Program-made: the position numbers and the translations under genes
Assembly (NCBI RefSeq): GCF_000262345.1
Contig: NZ_AJTQ01000139.1
Coordinates: 62,001-126,000 of the forward strand
Reading direction: 5' to 3'
Length of the DNA stretch: 64,000 nt
DNA from: Streptomyces xiaopingdaonensis
Lineage (GTDB): Bacteria > Actinomycetota > Actinomycetes > Streptomycetales > Streptomycetaceae
Notes under the pieces: generated by a model
The model's input: only the letters and a program-made list of their open reading frames with translations
What the model was told of the DNA's origin: nothing
The model's database searches: none
Shown here: in pieces, positions 5,604-51,444 of the stretch
Layout of the letters: every line of letters starts with the position of its first letter
Position numbering within the stretch: the stretch's first letter is position 1

Positions 5604-5914
5604 CCGGTGCGATTGTTTCACGTCTTGAACCCATCGGCACCGCCCGTCCCGGTCCCTGGACCCGTCCGCGCACCTGAGCGCAGGCCCGCACGGATCGACT
5701 GCGCGCGCGGAGGGATCGCACCCGAAGGTATGGTCGAGAAGCAGGGAGGCAGTGCGGAGGCACGCCTGCACACCCGCGAGCGCGCCTGCGCGGAAGTGCA
5801 GCTCGGGGCCGCCGGACGGCGCACGTCCGCGCCCGGAGCCGCGCCGGGACGGGCGGCGTGCGTACGGTCGGACCTGCCGACGGACGGAGCCCACGGGCAG
5901 GAGGGAGCCACCGC

Positions 5915-8059
5915 GTGACGCGCAGCGTGTACATCTCCGGAATCGGCCGGAGCGACGGCCGCCAGGTCGTCGAACTCGGCCTGATGGAGCTGCTTTCGCG
6001 GCAGGTCGACCGCGTCGGGATCTTCCGCCCGCTCGCCCACGAGGGCCCCGACCGGATCTGCGAACTGCTGCGCGCCCGCTACCGGCTCACCCAGCCCGCC
6101 GCCTCCGTCTTCGGGCTCCGCTACGAGGACGCTGCCGAGATCCAGGCGAACCGCGGCACCGACGAACTCGTCTCCCGGCTCGTGGAGCGCTACCACCAGG
6201 TCGCCATGGAGTACGAGGCGGTCCTCGTCCTCGGCACCGACTACGCGGAGACGGGCCTCCCCGCCGAACTGGCGCTCAACGCGCGGCTCGCCAACGAGTT
6301 CGGCGCCTCCCTCGTCCCCGTCGTCGCCGCCCGCGACCAGGGCCCGGAGTCGGCCGTCGCCGAGCTCCGGAACGCGCACGAGGCGTACGCCTCGCTCGGC
6401 ACCGACATCAGCGCCCTCGTCGCCAACCGCGTCCTCGACGACGCCACCCGGCACGCCCTGCGCGACCTCGGCGAGCACCTGCCCTGCCCGCTCTACGTCC
6501 TCCCCGAGGAGCCCGCGCTCAGCGCGCCCACCATCTCCCAGGTCCGCGAGGCGCTCGACGCGGACGTGGTCCTCGGCGACCCGGCGGGCCTCGCGCGCGA
6601 CGTCCGCGACTACGTCTTCGGCGGCGCCCATCTCCCCGCCTTCCTCCCCGCGTTGACCGAGAGCTGCCTCGTCGTGACGCCAGGGGACCGCGCCGACCTC
6701 GTCATGGGGGCGCTCGCCGCGCACGCCGCGGGATCGCCGCCGATAGCGGGCGTGCTCCTCACCCTCGGCCACCGCCCCGACGACCAGGTCCTCGCGCTCG
6801 CCTCCCGACTGGCGCCGGGGACGCCGCTGCTCTCCGTCCCCGAGAGCTCCTTCCCCACCGCGTACGAACTCTTCGGCCTCGAAGGCGAGTTGACGTCGAC
6901 CACACCGCGCAAGGCCGAGGTGGCGCTCGGGCTCTTCGAGAACCACGTCGACACGAGGGAGCTCACCCGGCTCCTCTCCGTCGGACGCAGCTCCCGCGTC
7001 ACCCCGCTGATGTTCGAGCACGAACTGGTGGAGCGGTCGCGCGCCGCGCGCCGGCACATCGTCCTTCCCGAGGGCGCGGAGGAGCGGGTGCTCCGCGCCG
7101 CCGAAGTGCTGCTGCGGCGCGGCGTCTGCGACCTGACGCTCCTCGGCGACCCGGTGGAGGTCCGCAAGGTCGCCGCCGAACTCGGCATCTCGCTGCGGCT
7201 GTTGTCGGACGGCGAGCCGGCCGAACCCGGCGGCCCCGTGGCCCGCGTCGTCGACCCCCAGGCGTCGCCGCTGCGGGACGAGTTCGCCGAGTCGTACGCG
7301 CGGCTGCGCGCGCACAAGGGCGTCACCTACGAACTCGCCAGGGACATCGTCACCGACGTCACCTACTTCGGCACCCTCATGGTCGAGCACGGCCTCGCCG
7401 ACGGCATGGTCTCGGGCGCCGCGCACTCCACGGCCGCCACGATCCGCCCGGCGTTCGAGGTGATCCGCACCAAGCCGGACGCGGCCGTCGTCTCGTCTGT
7501 CTTCTTCATGTGCCTCGCCGACCGCGTCCTCGTCTACGGGGACTGCGCCGTCGTACCCGACCCGGACGCCGAGCAGTTGGCCGACATAGCGATCCAGTCG
7601 GCGCAGACGGCGCAGCGGTTCGGCGTGGAGCCGCGGATCGCGCTGCTCTCGTACTCGACGGGGAGTTCGGGCTCGGGTGCCGACGTCGAGAAGGTGCGGA
7701 CGGCCACCGAGCTGGTGCACGACCGTCGTCCCGACCTCCTCGCCGAGGGCCCGATCCAGTACGACGCGGCCGTCGACCCGACGGTCGCCGCCGCCAAGCT
7801 CCCCGGCTCGCACGTCGCGGGGCGCGCGACGGTCCTCGTCTTTCCCGACCTCAACACCGGCAACAACACCTACAAGGCCGTGCAGCGCTCGGCCGGCGCC
7901 GTCGCCGTCGGCCCGGTGCTCCAGGGTCTGCGCAAGCCCGTCAACGACCTCTCTCGGGGAGCGCTCGTGCAGGACATCGTCAACACCGTCGCGATCACGG
8001 CCGTGCAGGCGCAGACGCAGAGCGCCCTGCCGCCGGAGCCGGAGGAGGCAGCGCCGTGA
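5915..8059 (+). CDS. pta: Phosphate acetyltransferase, long two-domain form
   Basis: 714 aa, the long form of Pta. It interconverts acetyl-CoA and acetyl phosphate. The N-terminal BioD-like domain (about 1-220) keeps only a degenerate P-loop (GIGRSDGRQ). A DRTGG-type middle domain follows, and the C-terminal catalytic PTA_PTB domain starts near 380 (RRHIVLPEGAEERVLRAAE) and contains GAAHSTAATIRPAF and FPDLNTGNNTYKAVQR. The GTG start is fixed by GGAGGGAG 9 bases upstream. The stop overlaps the ackA GTG (GTGA), so pta-ackA is one operon for acetate overflow and acetyl phosphate supply. Confidence 0.96.
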   Translation: MTRSVYISGIGRSDGRQVVELGLMELLSRQVDRVGIFRPLAHEGPDRICELLRARYRLTQPAASVFGLRYEDAAEIQANRGTDELVSRLVERYHQVAMEYEAVLVLGTDYAETGLPAELALNARLANEFGASLVPVVAARDQGPESAVAELRNAHEAYASLGTDISALVANRVLDDATRHALRDLGEHLPCPLYVLPEEPALSAPTISQVREALDADVVLGDPAGLARDVRDYVFGGAHLPAFLPALTESCLVVTPGDRADLVMGALAAHAAGSPPIAGVLLTLGHRPDDQVLALASRLAPGTPLLSVPESSFPTAYELFGLEGELTSTTPRKAEVALGLFENHVDTRELTRLLSVGRSSRVTPLMFEHELVERSRAARRHIVLPEGAEERVLRAAEVLLRRGVCDLTLLGDPVEVRKVAAELGISLRLLSDGEPAEPGGPVARVVDPQASPLRDEFAESYARLRAHKGVTYELARDIVTDVTYFGTLMVEHGLADGMVSGAAHSTAATIRPAFEVIRTKPDAAVVSSVFFMCLADRVLVYGDCAVVPDPDAEQLADIAIQSAQTAQRFGVEPRIALLSYSTGSSGSGADVEKVRTATELVHDRRPDLLAEGPIQYDAAVDPTVAAAKLPGSHVAGRATVLVFPDLNTGNNTYKAVQRSAGAVAVGPVLQGLRKPVNDLSRGALVQDIVNTVAITAVQAQTQSALPPEPEEAAP

Positions 8060-9264
8060 CCGCCGCCACGCGGGTGCTGGTGCTCAACTCCGGTTCCTCC
8101 TCCGTCAAGTACCAGCTCCTCGACATGGCCGAGGGCGTCCGCATCGCCACGGGGCTCGTGGAGCGGATCGGCGAGCGGGAGTCCCGCCTGGAGCACGTGC
8201 CGCGGCTCTCCGGCACGGGGGCCCGCGAGCGGCACACCCGCGTCGCCGACCACGACGAGGCGCTGGCGGCCGTCGCCGACGAGCTGGCAGCCGACGGATA
8301 CGGCCTCGACTCGCCCCAACTCGCCGCCGTCGGGCACCGCGTGGTCCACGGCGGCCTCCGCTTCACCGAGCCGACGCTCGTCGACGACGCGGTGCTCGCG
8401 GAGATCGAGCGGCTCGTGCCCGTCGCGCCGCTGCACAACCCGGCGAACCTCACCGGCATCGAGACGGCCCGCCGGCTGCGCCCCGACGTTCCGCAGGTGG
8501 CCGTCTTCGACACCGCCTTCCACTCCGCCATGCCGGAGGAGGCGGCCCGGTACGCGATCGACGTGCGCACGGCCGACGCGCACCGCGTCCGCCGCTACGG
8601 CTTCCACGGCACCTCGCACGAGTACGTCGCCCGCCGCACCGCCGACCTCCTCGGCACGGAGCCGGAGGAGACCAACACGATCGTGCTCCACCTCGGCAAC
8701 GGCGCCTCGGCCTCCGCCGTCTCCGGCGGGCGCTGCCTGGACACCTCGATGGGTCTCACCCCGCTGGAGGGCCTCGTGATGGGGACGCGCTCCGGCGACG
8801 TCGATCCGGCCGTCGTCTTCCACCTCCACCGGGTCGCGGGGATGTCGCTCGACGAGATCGACACCCTCCTCAACCGGGACAGCGGGCTGCGGGGCCTCTG
8901 CGGCGAGAACGACATGCGGCAGATACGCAAGCGTCGGACCGAGGGCGACGCCGCGGCGCAGCTCGCGTTCGACATCTACATACACCGGTTGAAGAAGTAC
9001 ATCGGCGCGTACTTCGCCGTCCTCGGCCGTGTCGACGCGCTCGTCTTCACCGCGGGCGTCGGGGAGAACTCGGCCGACGTGCGCGCAGCGGCCGTGGCCG
9101 GGCTCGACGGCTTCGGGCTCGCCGTGGACCCGGAGTTGAACACCGCGGACGCCTCGGGGCCGCGGCTCGTCTCGCCGCCGGACGCGGGGGTGGCCGTGGG
9201 GGTCGTACCGACCGACGAGGAATGGGAGATAGCCCGTCAGACCTACGCGCTCGTCACCGCCTGA
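8056..9264 (+). CDS. ackA: Acetate kinase
   Basis: 402 aa, normal length. It makes acetate and ATP from acetyl phosphate and ADP, or the reverse. Signature motifs: NSGSSSVKYQL (11-21), GHRVVHGG with R95, FDTAFH with D152, YGFHGTSHEYV, HLGNGASA (phosphate loop) and TAGVGENS near the C-terminus. The GTG start lies in the 4-base overlap with the pta stop, which implies coupled translation. A longer open frame extends through pta in this reading frame but is only the antiphase of pta. Pyruvate kinase follows 61 bases later with its own ribosome site. Confidence 0.96.
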   Translation: MTAATRVLVLNSGSSSVKYQLLDMAEGVRIATGLVERIGERESRLEHVPRLSGTGARERHTRVADHDEALAAVADELAADGYGLDSPQLAAVGHRVVHGGLRFTEPTLVDDAVLAEIERLVPVAPLHNPANLTGIETARRLRPDVPQVAVFDTAFHSAMPEEAARYAIDVRTADAHRVRRYGFHGTSHEYVARRTADLLGTEPEETNTIVLHLGNGASASAVSGGRCLDTSMGLTPLEGLVMGTRSGDVDPAVVFHLHRVAGMSLDEIDTLLNRDSGLRGLCGENDMRQIRKRRTEGDAAAQLAFDIYIHRLKKYIGAYFAVLGRVDALVFTAGVGENSADVRAAAVAGLDGFGLAVDPELNTADASGPRLVSPPDAGVAVGVVPTDEEWEIARQTYALVTA

Positions 9265-9325
9265 GGCGGTGCGCGCCCTCGCCCCCATTCGTTCCGAACA
9301 TAAACAAAACGATAGGATCGCCCTC

Positions 9326-10753
9326 ATGCGCCGTTCCAAAATCGTCTGTACGCTCGGGCCAGCCGTCGACTCCTACGAGCAGTTGAAGATGCTCGCCGAG
9401 GCCGGAATGAACGTGGCCCGTTTCAACATGAGCCACGGTTCGCACTCCGAGCACCAGGAGCGGTACAACCGCCTCCGCAAGGTCTCGGAGGAGTCAGGAC
9501 GCGCCATCGGCGTCCTCGCCGACCTTCAGGGCCCGAAGATCCGGCTGGAGACCTTCGCCGACGGGCCGGTCGAGCTCGTGCGCGGCGAGGAGTTCACCAT
9601 CACGACGGAGGACGTCGCCGGTGACAAGAGCATCTGCGGCACCACCTACAAGGGCCTCCCCGGCGACGTCGCCAAGGGGGACCCGGTCCTCATCAACGAC
9701 GGGAACGTCGCGCTCCAGGTCACCTCGGTCGAGGGCCCGCGGGTGCACACCATCGTGATCGAGGGCGGCGTCGTCTCCGACCACAAGGGCATCAACCTGC
9801 CGGGCGCCGCCGTCAACGTCCCCGCGCTGAGCGACAAGGACGTCGAGGACCTGCGGTTCGCGCTGCAGATGGGGTGCGACCTCGTCGCCCTCTCCTTCGT
9901 GCGCGACGCCGCGGACGTGCGCGACGTCCACCAGGTCATGGACGAGGTGGGGCGGCGCGTCCCGGTGATCGCGAAGGTCGAGAAGCCGCAGGCGGTCGCG
10001 AACATGGAGCAGATCGTCGCCGCCTTCGACGGCGTGATGGTGGCGCGCGGCGACCTCGCGGTGGAGTACCCGCTCGAGCGGGTGCCGATGGTGCAGAAGC
10101 GCCTCGTCGAGCTCTGCCGCCGGAACGCGAAGCCCGTGATCGTCGCGACCCAGATGATGGAGTCGATGATCACCAACTCCCGCCCGACGCGCGCCGAGGC
10201 GAGCGACGTCGCCAACGCGATCCTCGACGGCGCCGACGCGGTGATGCTCTCCGCGGAGTCCTCGGTCGGCCAGTACCCGATCGAGACGGTGAAGACGATG
10301 TCGAAGATCGTCGGAGCCGCCGAGGGCGAGCTGCTCTCGCGCGGCCTCCAACCGCTCGTGCCGGGCAAGAAGCCGCGCACGCAGGGCGGTTCCGTCGCGC
10401 GCGCCGCCGCCGAGATGGCCGACTTCCTCGACGCCAAGGTCCTCGTCGCCTTCACCAAGTCCGGTGACACGGCGCGGCGCCTGAGCCGCTACCGCGCACG
10501 CCAGCCCATCCTCGCCTTCACGACCGACGCGTCGACGGGCAACCAACTCACTCTCTCCTGGGGCGTCGAGGCGCACGTCGTCCCGCACGTCGACCACACG
10601 GACGAGATGGTCGACCTCGTCGACGCCGAGCTGCTGAAGATGGGCCGCTTGCAGCAGGGCGACACGATGCTGATCACCGCGGGGTCGCCCCCCGGCGTCC
10701 CCGGCACGACCAACATGGTCCGCGTCCACCACCTCGGCAACAGCGGCAACTGA
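9326..10753 (+). CDS. pyk: Pyruvate kinase
   Basis: 475 aa. It converts phosphoenolpyruvate and ADP to pyruvate and ATP. N-terminal SKIVCTLGPA, the substrate/K+ loop RFNMSHG (32-38), VEKPQAVANMEQI, VARGDLAVE (about 239-247) and the family signature ATQMMESMITNSRPTRAE are all present, as is the C-terminal allosteric domain. The ATG at 9326 follows GATAGGATCG. The leader just upstream is AT-rich (ATAAACAAAACG), unlike its surroundings, and may carry the promoter, so pyk need not depend on pta-ackA read-through. It is probably the pyk2 orthologue of S. coelicolor, judged by position next to ackA. Confidence 0.96.
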   Translation: MRRSKIVCTLGPAVDSYEQLKMLAEAGMNVARFNMSHGSHSEHQERYNRLRKVSEESGRAIGVLADLQGPKIRLETFADGPVELVRGEEFTITTEDVAGDKSICGTTYKGLPGDVAKGDPVLINDGNVALQVTSVEGPRVHTIVIEGGVVSDHKGINLPGAAVNVPALSDKDVEDLRFALQMGCDLVALSFVRDAADVRDVHQVMDEVGRRVPVIAKVEKPQAVANMEQIVAAFDGVMVARGDLAVEYPLERVPMVQKRLVELCRRNAKPVIVATQMMESMITNSRPTRAEASDVANAILDGADAVMLSAESSVGQYPIETVKTMSKIVGAAEGELLSRGLQPLVPGKKPRTQGGSVARAAAEMADFLDAKVLVAFTKSGDTARRLSRYRARQPILAFTTDASTGNQLTLSWGVEAHVVPHVDHTDEMVDLVDAELLKMGRLQQGDTMLITAGSPPGVPGTTNMVRVHHLGNSGN

Positions 10754-48494: not shown

Positions 48495-49352
48495 TCAGTA
48501 CGTGTAGTACCCGCGGCCGCTCTTGCGTCCGAGGTCGCCGGCGTCGACCATGCGGCGCATCGACTCGGGCGGCGCGAACTTGGGGTCCTTCGACTCCTCG
48601 TGGATGTTGTCGGTGGCGTGCAGCAGGATGTCGACGCCCGTGAGGTCGGTGGTGGCGAGCGGGCCCATCGCGTGCCCGAAGCCGAGCCGGCAGGCGGTGT
48701 CGATGTCCTCGGCCGAGGCGACGCCGGATTCCTCCAGCTTCGCCGCCTCGACGACGAGCGCGGAGATCAGCCGTGTCGTCACGAAGCCGGCGACGTCCCT
48801 GTTGACGACGATGCAGGTCTTGCCGACGGACTCCGCGAAGGACCGCGCGGCGGCGAGCGTCTCGTCGCTCGTCCTGTGCCCGCGCACCAGCTCGCAGAGG
48901 GCCATCATCGGGACGGGCGAGAAGAAGTGCGTGCCGACGACGCGTTCGGGCCGCTCCGTGGCGGCGGCGATCTTCGTGAGGGGGATCGCCGACGTGTTGG
49001 AGGCGAGCACCGCGTCCTCGCGTACGAGCCGGTCGAGTGCGGCGAAGATCTCGCGCTTCACCTCGATCTTCTCGAAGACCGCCTCGACGACGACGTCCGC
49101 GTCGGCCACCGCGTCGAGTTCGGTGCTGGTGGTGATGCGCGCGAGCGCCGCCTCGGCGTCGTCGGTCGAGAGCTTGCCCTTCGCGGCGAACTTCTCCAGC
49201 GAGGTGCTGATCGCGTCCCTGCCGCGGGCGAGTGCCTCGTCCGTCACGTCACGGAGGACCACGTCCCAGCCGGCCTGCGCCGAGACCTGCGCGATTCCGG
49301 AACCCATCAGTCCGGCTCCGACGACGGCGAGCTTCTTCGCCACGGCATTCAC
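48495..49352 (-). CDS. 3-hydroxybutyryl-CoA dehydrogenase
   Basis: 285 aa. NAD-binding GAGLMG (12-17), catalytic H142 in VGTHFFSPVPMM, and the C-terminal domain DVAGFVTTRLISALVVEAA with DKxTGRG-like GRKSGRGYYTY end. Reduces acetoacetyl-CoA to 3-hydroxybutyryl-CoA or the reverse. Fits with the thiolase at 27.9 kb and with icmA (butyryl-CoA). GTG 49352 chosen; GAGGTG lies just upstream. Confidence 0.93.
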   Translation of the reverse strand: MNAVAKKLAVVGAGLMGSGIAQVSAQAGWDVVLRDVTDEALARGRDAISTSLEKFAAKGKLSTDDAEAALARITTSTELDAVADADVVVEAVFEKIEVKREIFAALDRLVREDAVLASNTSAIPLTKIAAATERPERVVGTHFFSPVPMMALCELVRGHRTSDETLAAARSFAESVGKTCIVVNRDVAGFVTTRLISALVVEAAKLEESGVASAEDIDTACRLGFGHAMGPLATTDLTGVDILLHATDNIHEESKDPKFAPPESMRRMVDAGDLGRKSGRGYYTY

Positions 49353-49745: not shown

Positions 49746-50144
49746 TCACATCCGTCGCACGCGGTGGACACGCGCCATCGCCAGCGACAGGAACCCGAGC
49801 ACCACGGCACCCGCGACGACCCCCGCCGCGACGACTTGCCCGACGGACGGCTTTCCCTGCGACAGCAGCATCCCCGCCGCCACCGCCGCCACGAGCACCC
49901 CGGACAACACGCTGCACAGAAAGGCACGTTCAGGCGAGCGCACGCCGCCGACCGCACGCGCACCGAGCGCCGCCCACCACGCGCCCGCCTCCCGCCGCTC
50001 CCGCCTGCGCGCCACGACGGCACCGAGGCGGAGGAGGGCGCACGCCGCGACCCCCGCGCCCGCGGCCCACCCGACGAGCGCACGCGCGGTGCCGAGGAAG
50101 AGCAGGGCGGCGAGCACGGCGCCCGTCCCCCGGCCGAGTACCAC
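49746..50144 (-). CDS. Small integral membrane protein, hypothetical
   Basis: 132 aa from a GTG inside the ctaD fragment's last codons. Likely three to four transmembrane helices ([59 protein letters not shown]) and ends VHRVRRM. It is read in another frame than the ctaD remnant and has no ribosome site of its own, so it may be the 3' part of a gene whose front end was lost. Codon use is Streptomyces-like. No family recognised. Confidence 0.5.
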
Positions 50145-50589
50145 CCGCCGGTGTCAGGAAGCTACTCGCCGCGATGAGTGAACCGAAGAGGAAGAGCCAG
50201 TAGGCGAGCATGTTCAGTCGCGGGAACGCCACGTCCGGAGCGCCGATCTGGAGCGGCATCAGCCAGTTGGCGAACCCGGTGAAGAGGGGCATCGCGAAGA
50301 GCAGCAGCATGATCGAACCGTGCATCGTGAACGCCTGGTTGAACTGCTCGTTCGACATGATCTGCGTACCAGGCCCGGCGAGTTCGGCGCGCATCACCAG
50401 CGCCAGCACCCCGCCGACGGCGAAGAAGACGAGCGCCGAGACGAGGTAGAGCGTGCCGATCCGCTTGTGGTCGGTGGTCGTCAGCCACACGACGACGGAC
50501 GCACCCCGCGGCCGCTCCTCCTCGACTCCGCGCGAACCCTCGTCCGCGGCCTCAGGTTCCTCGATGGCACTCACCGGCCGACTCACCAT
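50140..50589 (-). pseudogene. ctaD: Truncated cytochrome c oxidase subunit I (ctaD remnant)
   Basis: ATG 50589 with GAGAGG upstream opens a reading frame that reads [76 protein letters not shown] and [16 protein letters not shown]: the first 150 residues of CtaD, with two of twelve helices and one haem-a ligand His. Similarity stops at 50140; the frame then runs on as noise to 49930. About 420 residues are missing. It cannot form an oxidase. It looks like a partial duplication joined to another gene, unless the stop of similarity is an assembly artefact. Confidence 0.8.
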
Positions 50590-50871
50590 GCCTCTCGGCG
50601 GCCGGACCCACCGGTCGCCCGTCCACCGCCCGCGGTGGGGCGCACACGTACGGAAGCCGAAGGGGACGGAGTCGGGCGGCGATCCCCGCTCCCTCGGCGC
50701 CGTCCATGCTCGCCGCGGAGCACTCCCCCTCCGTAGGGGCGAGGAACCCCGCGCACAGGGGCCGTTGGGCCCGTTGGCACGCGCCGGCCACCGGGCCGAA
50801 AGGTGTCCGCACCGGGGCCGCCGGGGGAAGCCACCTGGGGCGCCCCCGAGCAGGGTGGCTACCCTCGTCGC

Positions 50872-51444
50872 ATGGTCAATCTGACGCGCATCTACACCCG
50901 GACCGGCGACAAGGGAACGACCGCGCTCGGCGACATGAGCCGTACCCCCAAGACGGACCTGCGGATCACCGCGTACGCCGACGCCAACGAGGCCAACGCG
51001 GTCATCGGCACCGCCCTCGCGCTCGGCGAACTCGAAGAGGAGGTGCGCGAGGTCCTGGTCCGCGTGCAGAACGACCTCTTCGACGTCGGCGCCGACCTGT
51101 CCACACCCGTCCAGGAGAACCCCGCGTACCCGCCGCTCCGCGTCGAGCAGGAGTACGTCGACAGGCTGGAGGAGGACTGCGACCGCTTCCTCGCCCAACT
51201 GGAGAAGCTCCGCAGCTTCATCCTCCCCGGCGGCACCCCGGCAGCAGCCCTCCTCCACCAGGCGACGACGGTCGCACGCCGCGCCGAGCGCTCCACCTGG
51301 GCCGCCCTCGAGGTGCACGGCGACACGATGAACGCACTCACGGCCACCTACCTCAACCGCCTCTCCGACCTGCTCTTCATCCTCGCCCGCATCGCCAACA
51401 AGGCCACGGGCGACGTGCTCTGGGTCCCCGGCGGAGAGCGCTGA
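50872..51444 (+). CDS. Cob(I)alamin adenosyltransferase, PduO type
   Basis: 190 aa. N-terminal ATP loop [11 protein letters not shown] (9-19), [17 protein letters not shown], and the C-terminal motif [13 protein letters not shown] with [13 protein letters not shown]. It converts cob(I)alamin and ATP to adenosylcobalamin, the cofactor required by IcmA. TACCCT lies 7 bases before the ATG, so the mRNA is probably leaderless. Followed after 43 bases by the AEC transporter. Confidence 0.94.

Follow-up and report, generated by a model that had tools for sequence, protein, structure and literature searches.

A probable lineage-specific pseudogene pair from a short-repeat deletion in a redundant accessory ctaD locus of Streptomyces xiaopingdaonensis

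Deletion between short direct repeats is a known route to bacterial pseudogenes. In Streptomyces coelicolor, SCO2155 and SCO2156 are named as CtaD and CtaC of the bcc-aa3 supercomplex (PMC7931247). The locus described here lies in a stretch of 64,000 nucleotides of Streptomyces xiaopingdaonensis (contig NZ_AJTQ01000139.1, positions 62,001 to 126,000 of the forward strand), hereafter the window. It carries an N-terminal stump of ctaD joined to the interior of a small membrane-protein gene. We assign a probability of about 0.95 to the reading, drawn from sequence comparison, that the two are a lineage-specific pseudogene pair, left behind when a single deletion at a short repeat struck an accessory oxidase locus that was redundant.

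The ctaD stump and its intact counterpart

The preliminary description had recognized the start of CtaD in the frame from ATG 50589 on the reverse strand, and this was borne out over 149 codons by matches to positions 1-102 of 436 of Pfam COX1 (E 3.8e-32) and to positions 2-118 of 522 of NCBIfam cyt_aa3_Actin (E 6.3e-57). The cut-offs for a full-length CtaD were not reached, with 193.6 bits against 880 for NF050116 (positions 2-118 of 522) and 158.3 bits against 670.75 for TIGR02891 (positions 1-115 of 504). What the stump keeps is the first histidine region (MHG) and three segments predicted to lie in the membrane; all later helices are absent and none of the later catalytic segments is kept. 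The catalytic-centre histidine motifs that come next in a complete CtaD (HPEVY, HH and HFH) do not occur in the 219-aa frame of the stump and lie beyond residue 149 in the translation of the Streptomyces sulphureus gene. A break in similarity had been placed at about 50140, which is right to a few bases: among the matches listed, the similarity to the DNA of relatives ended at query bases 452-479 (window 50169-50142), most commonly at bases 471-479, and the protein similarity to CtaD of S. sulphureus stops after residue 149. The frame had been described as open, and indeed the junction is crossed without a stop codon, the frame terminating at 49930. For the proposed ribosome site, an AGAGG is present (50595-50591), but it stands only 1 base 5' of ATG 50589 and its spacing would suit GTG 50586 better. 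The features of the locus are collected in Table 1.

Table 1. Features at and around the ctaD junction, in window positions
Feature	Position	Strand	Remark
ctaD remnant, codons 1-149	50143..50589	-	start shared with S. sulphureus; lacks codons 150-572
Out-of-frame run-on of the ctaD frame to the first stop	49930..50142	-	219-aa predicted product
Junction, 8-bp direct repeat CCGGCGGG	50144..50151	-	present at either end of the bases that S. sulphureus has and the locus lacks
Downstream membrane-protein gene remnant, codons 47-178 of 178	49746..50144	-	hydrophobic 132-aa ORF; GTG 50144 created at the junction
3-hydroxyacyl-CoA dehydrogenase (hbd-like), intact flank	48495..49352	-	same place in S. 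sulphureus
pduO-type cobalamin adenosyltransferase, intact flank, divergent	50803..51444	+	same place in S. sulphureus

Scanning of the species genomes with the 132-aa ORF led to one locus, located in S. sulphureus DSM 40104 (NZ_KB905814.1, here L141). Its gene order is a pduO-type cobalamin adenosyltransferase, a full ctaD, a gene for a membrane protein of 178 aa and a 3-hydroxyacyl-CoA dehydrogenase. The ctaD (L141 4019-5737) is of full length, with 572 aa and 1010 bits against the cut-off of 880, and its stop is overlapped by the start of the 178-aa gene (5734-6270) in the sequence GTGA. Window positions 54607-50144 are collinear with L141 1-4464 at 94.8 % identity, and positions 50151-44000 with L141 5864-11975 at 92.4 % identity. 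An intact orthologue thus occupies the same position in a close relative, as expected for a pseudogene formed by deletion. The accessory ctaD of S. sulphureus agrees with the stump in position, start and 136 of the 149 retained residues (28 of 447 bases differ, 93.7 % identity), but it is complete with 572 residues, and the gene that overlaps its end is intact, neither of which holds for the locus described here. Besides this counterpart, the size of the loss was observed directly: counted between surely homologous codons, 1408 bases of L141 are missing in the window. The ctaD fragment is a remnant of such a gene, a possibility already raised by the preliminary description. S. sulphureus, the closest relative found, served as proxy for the ancestor. 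A literature search retrieved no paper combining Streptomyces sulphureus, genome and pseudogene.

The junction and the downstream membrane-protein gene

The missing bases comprise 1407 between two copies of CCGGCGGG and one base just beyond the repeat. The repeat, likewise a direct observation, measures 8 bp across the window and both L141 edges and 9 bp within S. sulphureus. Among random breakpoint pairs 1.0-1.8 kb apart in L141, at least 8 bp were shared at a frequency of 0.00056. In S. sulphureus the two genes share 63 exact repeats with a length of 8 bp or above, some longer than the junction repeat, which therefore suggests a mechanism without proving it; slippage at a short repeat or end joining would be the deletion route it points to. 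A 28-base junction sequence, searched with up to 3 mismatches, was present only in the genome of the window among the 392 examined from the genus, and the same deletion was found in none of the 391 others. This sample was drawn from the larger genus with one genome per species, and S. sulphureus is evidently not included, since apart from the window itself no sequence in it matches the 132-aa ORF with more than 46 % identity.

The hydrophobic 132-aa ORF reported at the junction was confirmed; its frame differs from that of ctaD. The first 46 codons of the small membrane-protein gene are missing from the window, and the GTGA stop/start overlap of S. sulphureus is deleted. No Pfam or NCBIfam family was found above its cut-off for the small protein in the two copies scanned (178 aa from L141 and 181 aa from L083:2257-2802); EccD, DUF202 and DUF2207_C stayed below.

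Paralogues, relatives and signs of decay

Three COX1-family genes are encoded elsewhere in the genome, on contigs C120, C311 and C365. The preliminary description had called for a search for an intact ctaD, and C120 holds one as a 575-aa ORF, preceded by ctaC and followed by ctaE and a qcrC-like gene (these three neighbours were recognized by eye from their translations). This directly observed paralogue is of the same family as the stump, with 82.5 % DNA identity over 338 aligned bases, but is intact and adjoins ctaC and ctaE, whereas the stump is truncated. The copy on C311 is cut by the contig end; it is apparently split over the end of C311 and the start of C312. C365 contains a divergent COX1-family gene (8864-10186, 417.8 bits, with 46 % identity to the aligned part of the stump) which sits inside a 1656-aa open frame. 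The missing stretch gave six matches in the own assembly, none of them a long near-identical copy: C120 with 87 %, C311 with 85 % and its continuation on C312 with 85 %, two pieces on C365 with 64 % and 79 %, and on C71 a match of 29 bases with 93 %. That no near-identical copy turns up in the rest of the assembly is again a direct observation and one that a pseudogene by deletion would present.

Twenty-three genus loci were fetched, picked for matching one part of the locus or the other. In 17 of them a near-full-length ctaD match is closely trailed by a small-protein match, these small proteins being divergent and several of the matches extending over only about 30-60 residues. Three loci have ctaD alone, one (L110) only two short ctaD-like pieces, one (L102) the small gene alone and one (L104) neither gene. 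The small-gene homologue of L102, from genome G075, is 49 % identical to the S. sulphureus protein, and the 7 kb of sequence retrieved there contain no match to ctaD. As the pair prevails in these 17 loci, it is very likely that the intact arrangement of ctaD and small gene is the older state and that the window carries a deletion. Of 29 pduO loci retrieved from relatives, with flanks of no more than 1.5 kb either way and some of them truncated where a contig ended, 8 showed hbd and none showed ctaD, which suggests that the pair may have arrived at this spot in the lineage of S. sulphureus.

Had the 150-residue form been shared by many species, the stump would have to be regarded as a gene, a condition raised by the preliminary description; such a form was not seen among the relatives sampled. 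Eight ctaD frames in relatives are shorter than 200 aa (two each in G016, G020 and G033, one each in G026 and G060). Ten partial pieces were fetched from G033, G020, G016 and G026 (L158-L167), representing seven of the eight short frames plus three longer-frame pieces at contig edges; all ten touch a contig edge and have to be seen as assembly breaks rather than real short forms. The short piece of G060 starts at base 3 of its contig. A conserved short CtaD in relatives was rejected.

Residue 72 of the stump is Gly. Counted gene by gene, with the own genome and L141 left out, Arg stands at this site in every one of the 61 different ctaD genes from relatives that extend over it. S. sulphureus likewise has Arg, as do two copies of the own genome, those on C120 and C311, and the divergent copy on C365 has Gln. 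Val 34, found in none of the 60 genes from relatives that cover this position, was considered as a sign of decay and dropped, since the own copy on C311 has the same Val. Pairwise dN/dS values to S. sulphureus, which are not assigned to a branch, were 0.087 for ctaD codons 31-149 (three amino-acid differences), 0.378 for the whole stump (codons 1-149) and 0.654 for the small-gene remnant, compared with 0.051 for hbd, 0.250 for pduO and 0.229 for the transporter gene beside pduO. The value of 0.087 fits a recent loss and would also fit retained selection; a recent loss of ctaD at this place would be the simplest reading.

Alternative explanations and proposed history

A misassembly, with an intact ctaD truly present and 1.4 kb skipped by the assembler, has to be considered in a draft of 384 contigs, and ctaD seems hard to assemble because contigs of the own genome (C311/C312) and of several relatives end inside copies. 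However, the junction continues on its right into internal sequence of the small gene instead of a second ctaD copy, and collapsing one ctaD onto another cannot produce such a join. At 8 bp, the shared repeat is much shorter than the words with which assemblers usually work, and the missing stretch is left over on no contig, the long ones of its six own matches reaching at most 87 %. The unusual Gly 72 and the single-base loss beside the junction also argue against this explanation, which, judged from assembly and sequence, is unlikely. A recent partial duplication had been proposed in the preliminary description. It would have placed part of another ctaD next to a membrane gene unconnected with it, and could draw on the three other COX1-family genes in the genome. 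The stump is located at the orthologous position and is closer to the syntenic S. sulphureus gene (93.7 %) than to its paralogues on C120 and C311 (about 82 %), and both parts are neighbours in S. sulphureus as well as in the 17 loci of relatives mentioned above. The syntenic intact locus speaks decisively against the duplication, and on identity and synteny it was rejected as next to impossible.

A function of the fragment, as an N-terminal CtaD peptide or as a leader controlling expression of the membrane ORF, would agree with the open frame, the start common with S. sulphureus and the low pairwise dN/dS in codons 31-149. Against it stand the restriction of the join to one of the 392 sampled genus genomes, the loss of the first 46 codons from the membrane ORF and Gly at a site where every one of the relatives' genes has Arg. 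The translational coupling suggested earlier finds no basis in the arrangement: the ctaD frame does not end near the start of the membrane ORF but continues for about 215 bases beyond its GTG before stopping, and the overlap that joins the genes in S. sulphureus is gone. We consider such a peptide or leader most improbable. It is similarly very doubtful, if slightly less so, that the three-helix stump is still made and acts in this lineage only, e.g., as an assembly decoy or membrane peptide.

The deletion reading leads to the following probable history. The ancestor would have possessed, between pduO and hbd, an accessory ctaD and a small membrane-protein gene with an overlapping start. In the lineage of the window, about 1.4 kb would then have been lost by deletion between the copies of the 8-bp repeat. 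With it would have gone ctaD codons 150-572 and the first 46 codons of the small gene, the remaining parts being fused in different frames. The two stumps are now most likely pseudogenes, the function of CtaD being covered by the intact ctaD elsewhere. A single event, a repair or slippage mechanism and a loss of function are each the most likely interpretation. The persistence of an intact oxidase gene elsewhere in the genome makes the locus a case of ordinary gene decay. The small membrane-protein gene trailing the accessory ctaD in many of the Streptomyces loci examined may merit a study of its own. Otherwise the locus is of little import beyond providing a clean example of the loss of a redundant respiratory gene. 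Like bacterial pseudogenes formed by deletion between short direct repeats, it has one gap, a repeat at the junction and a redundant gene, and by comparison with them nothing unusual was seen at this locus.
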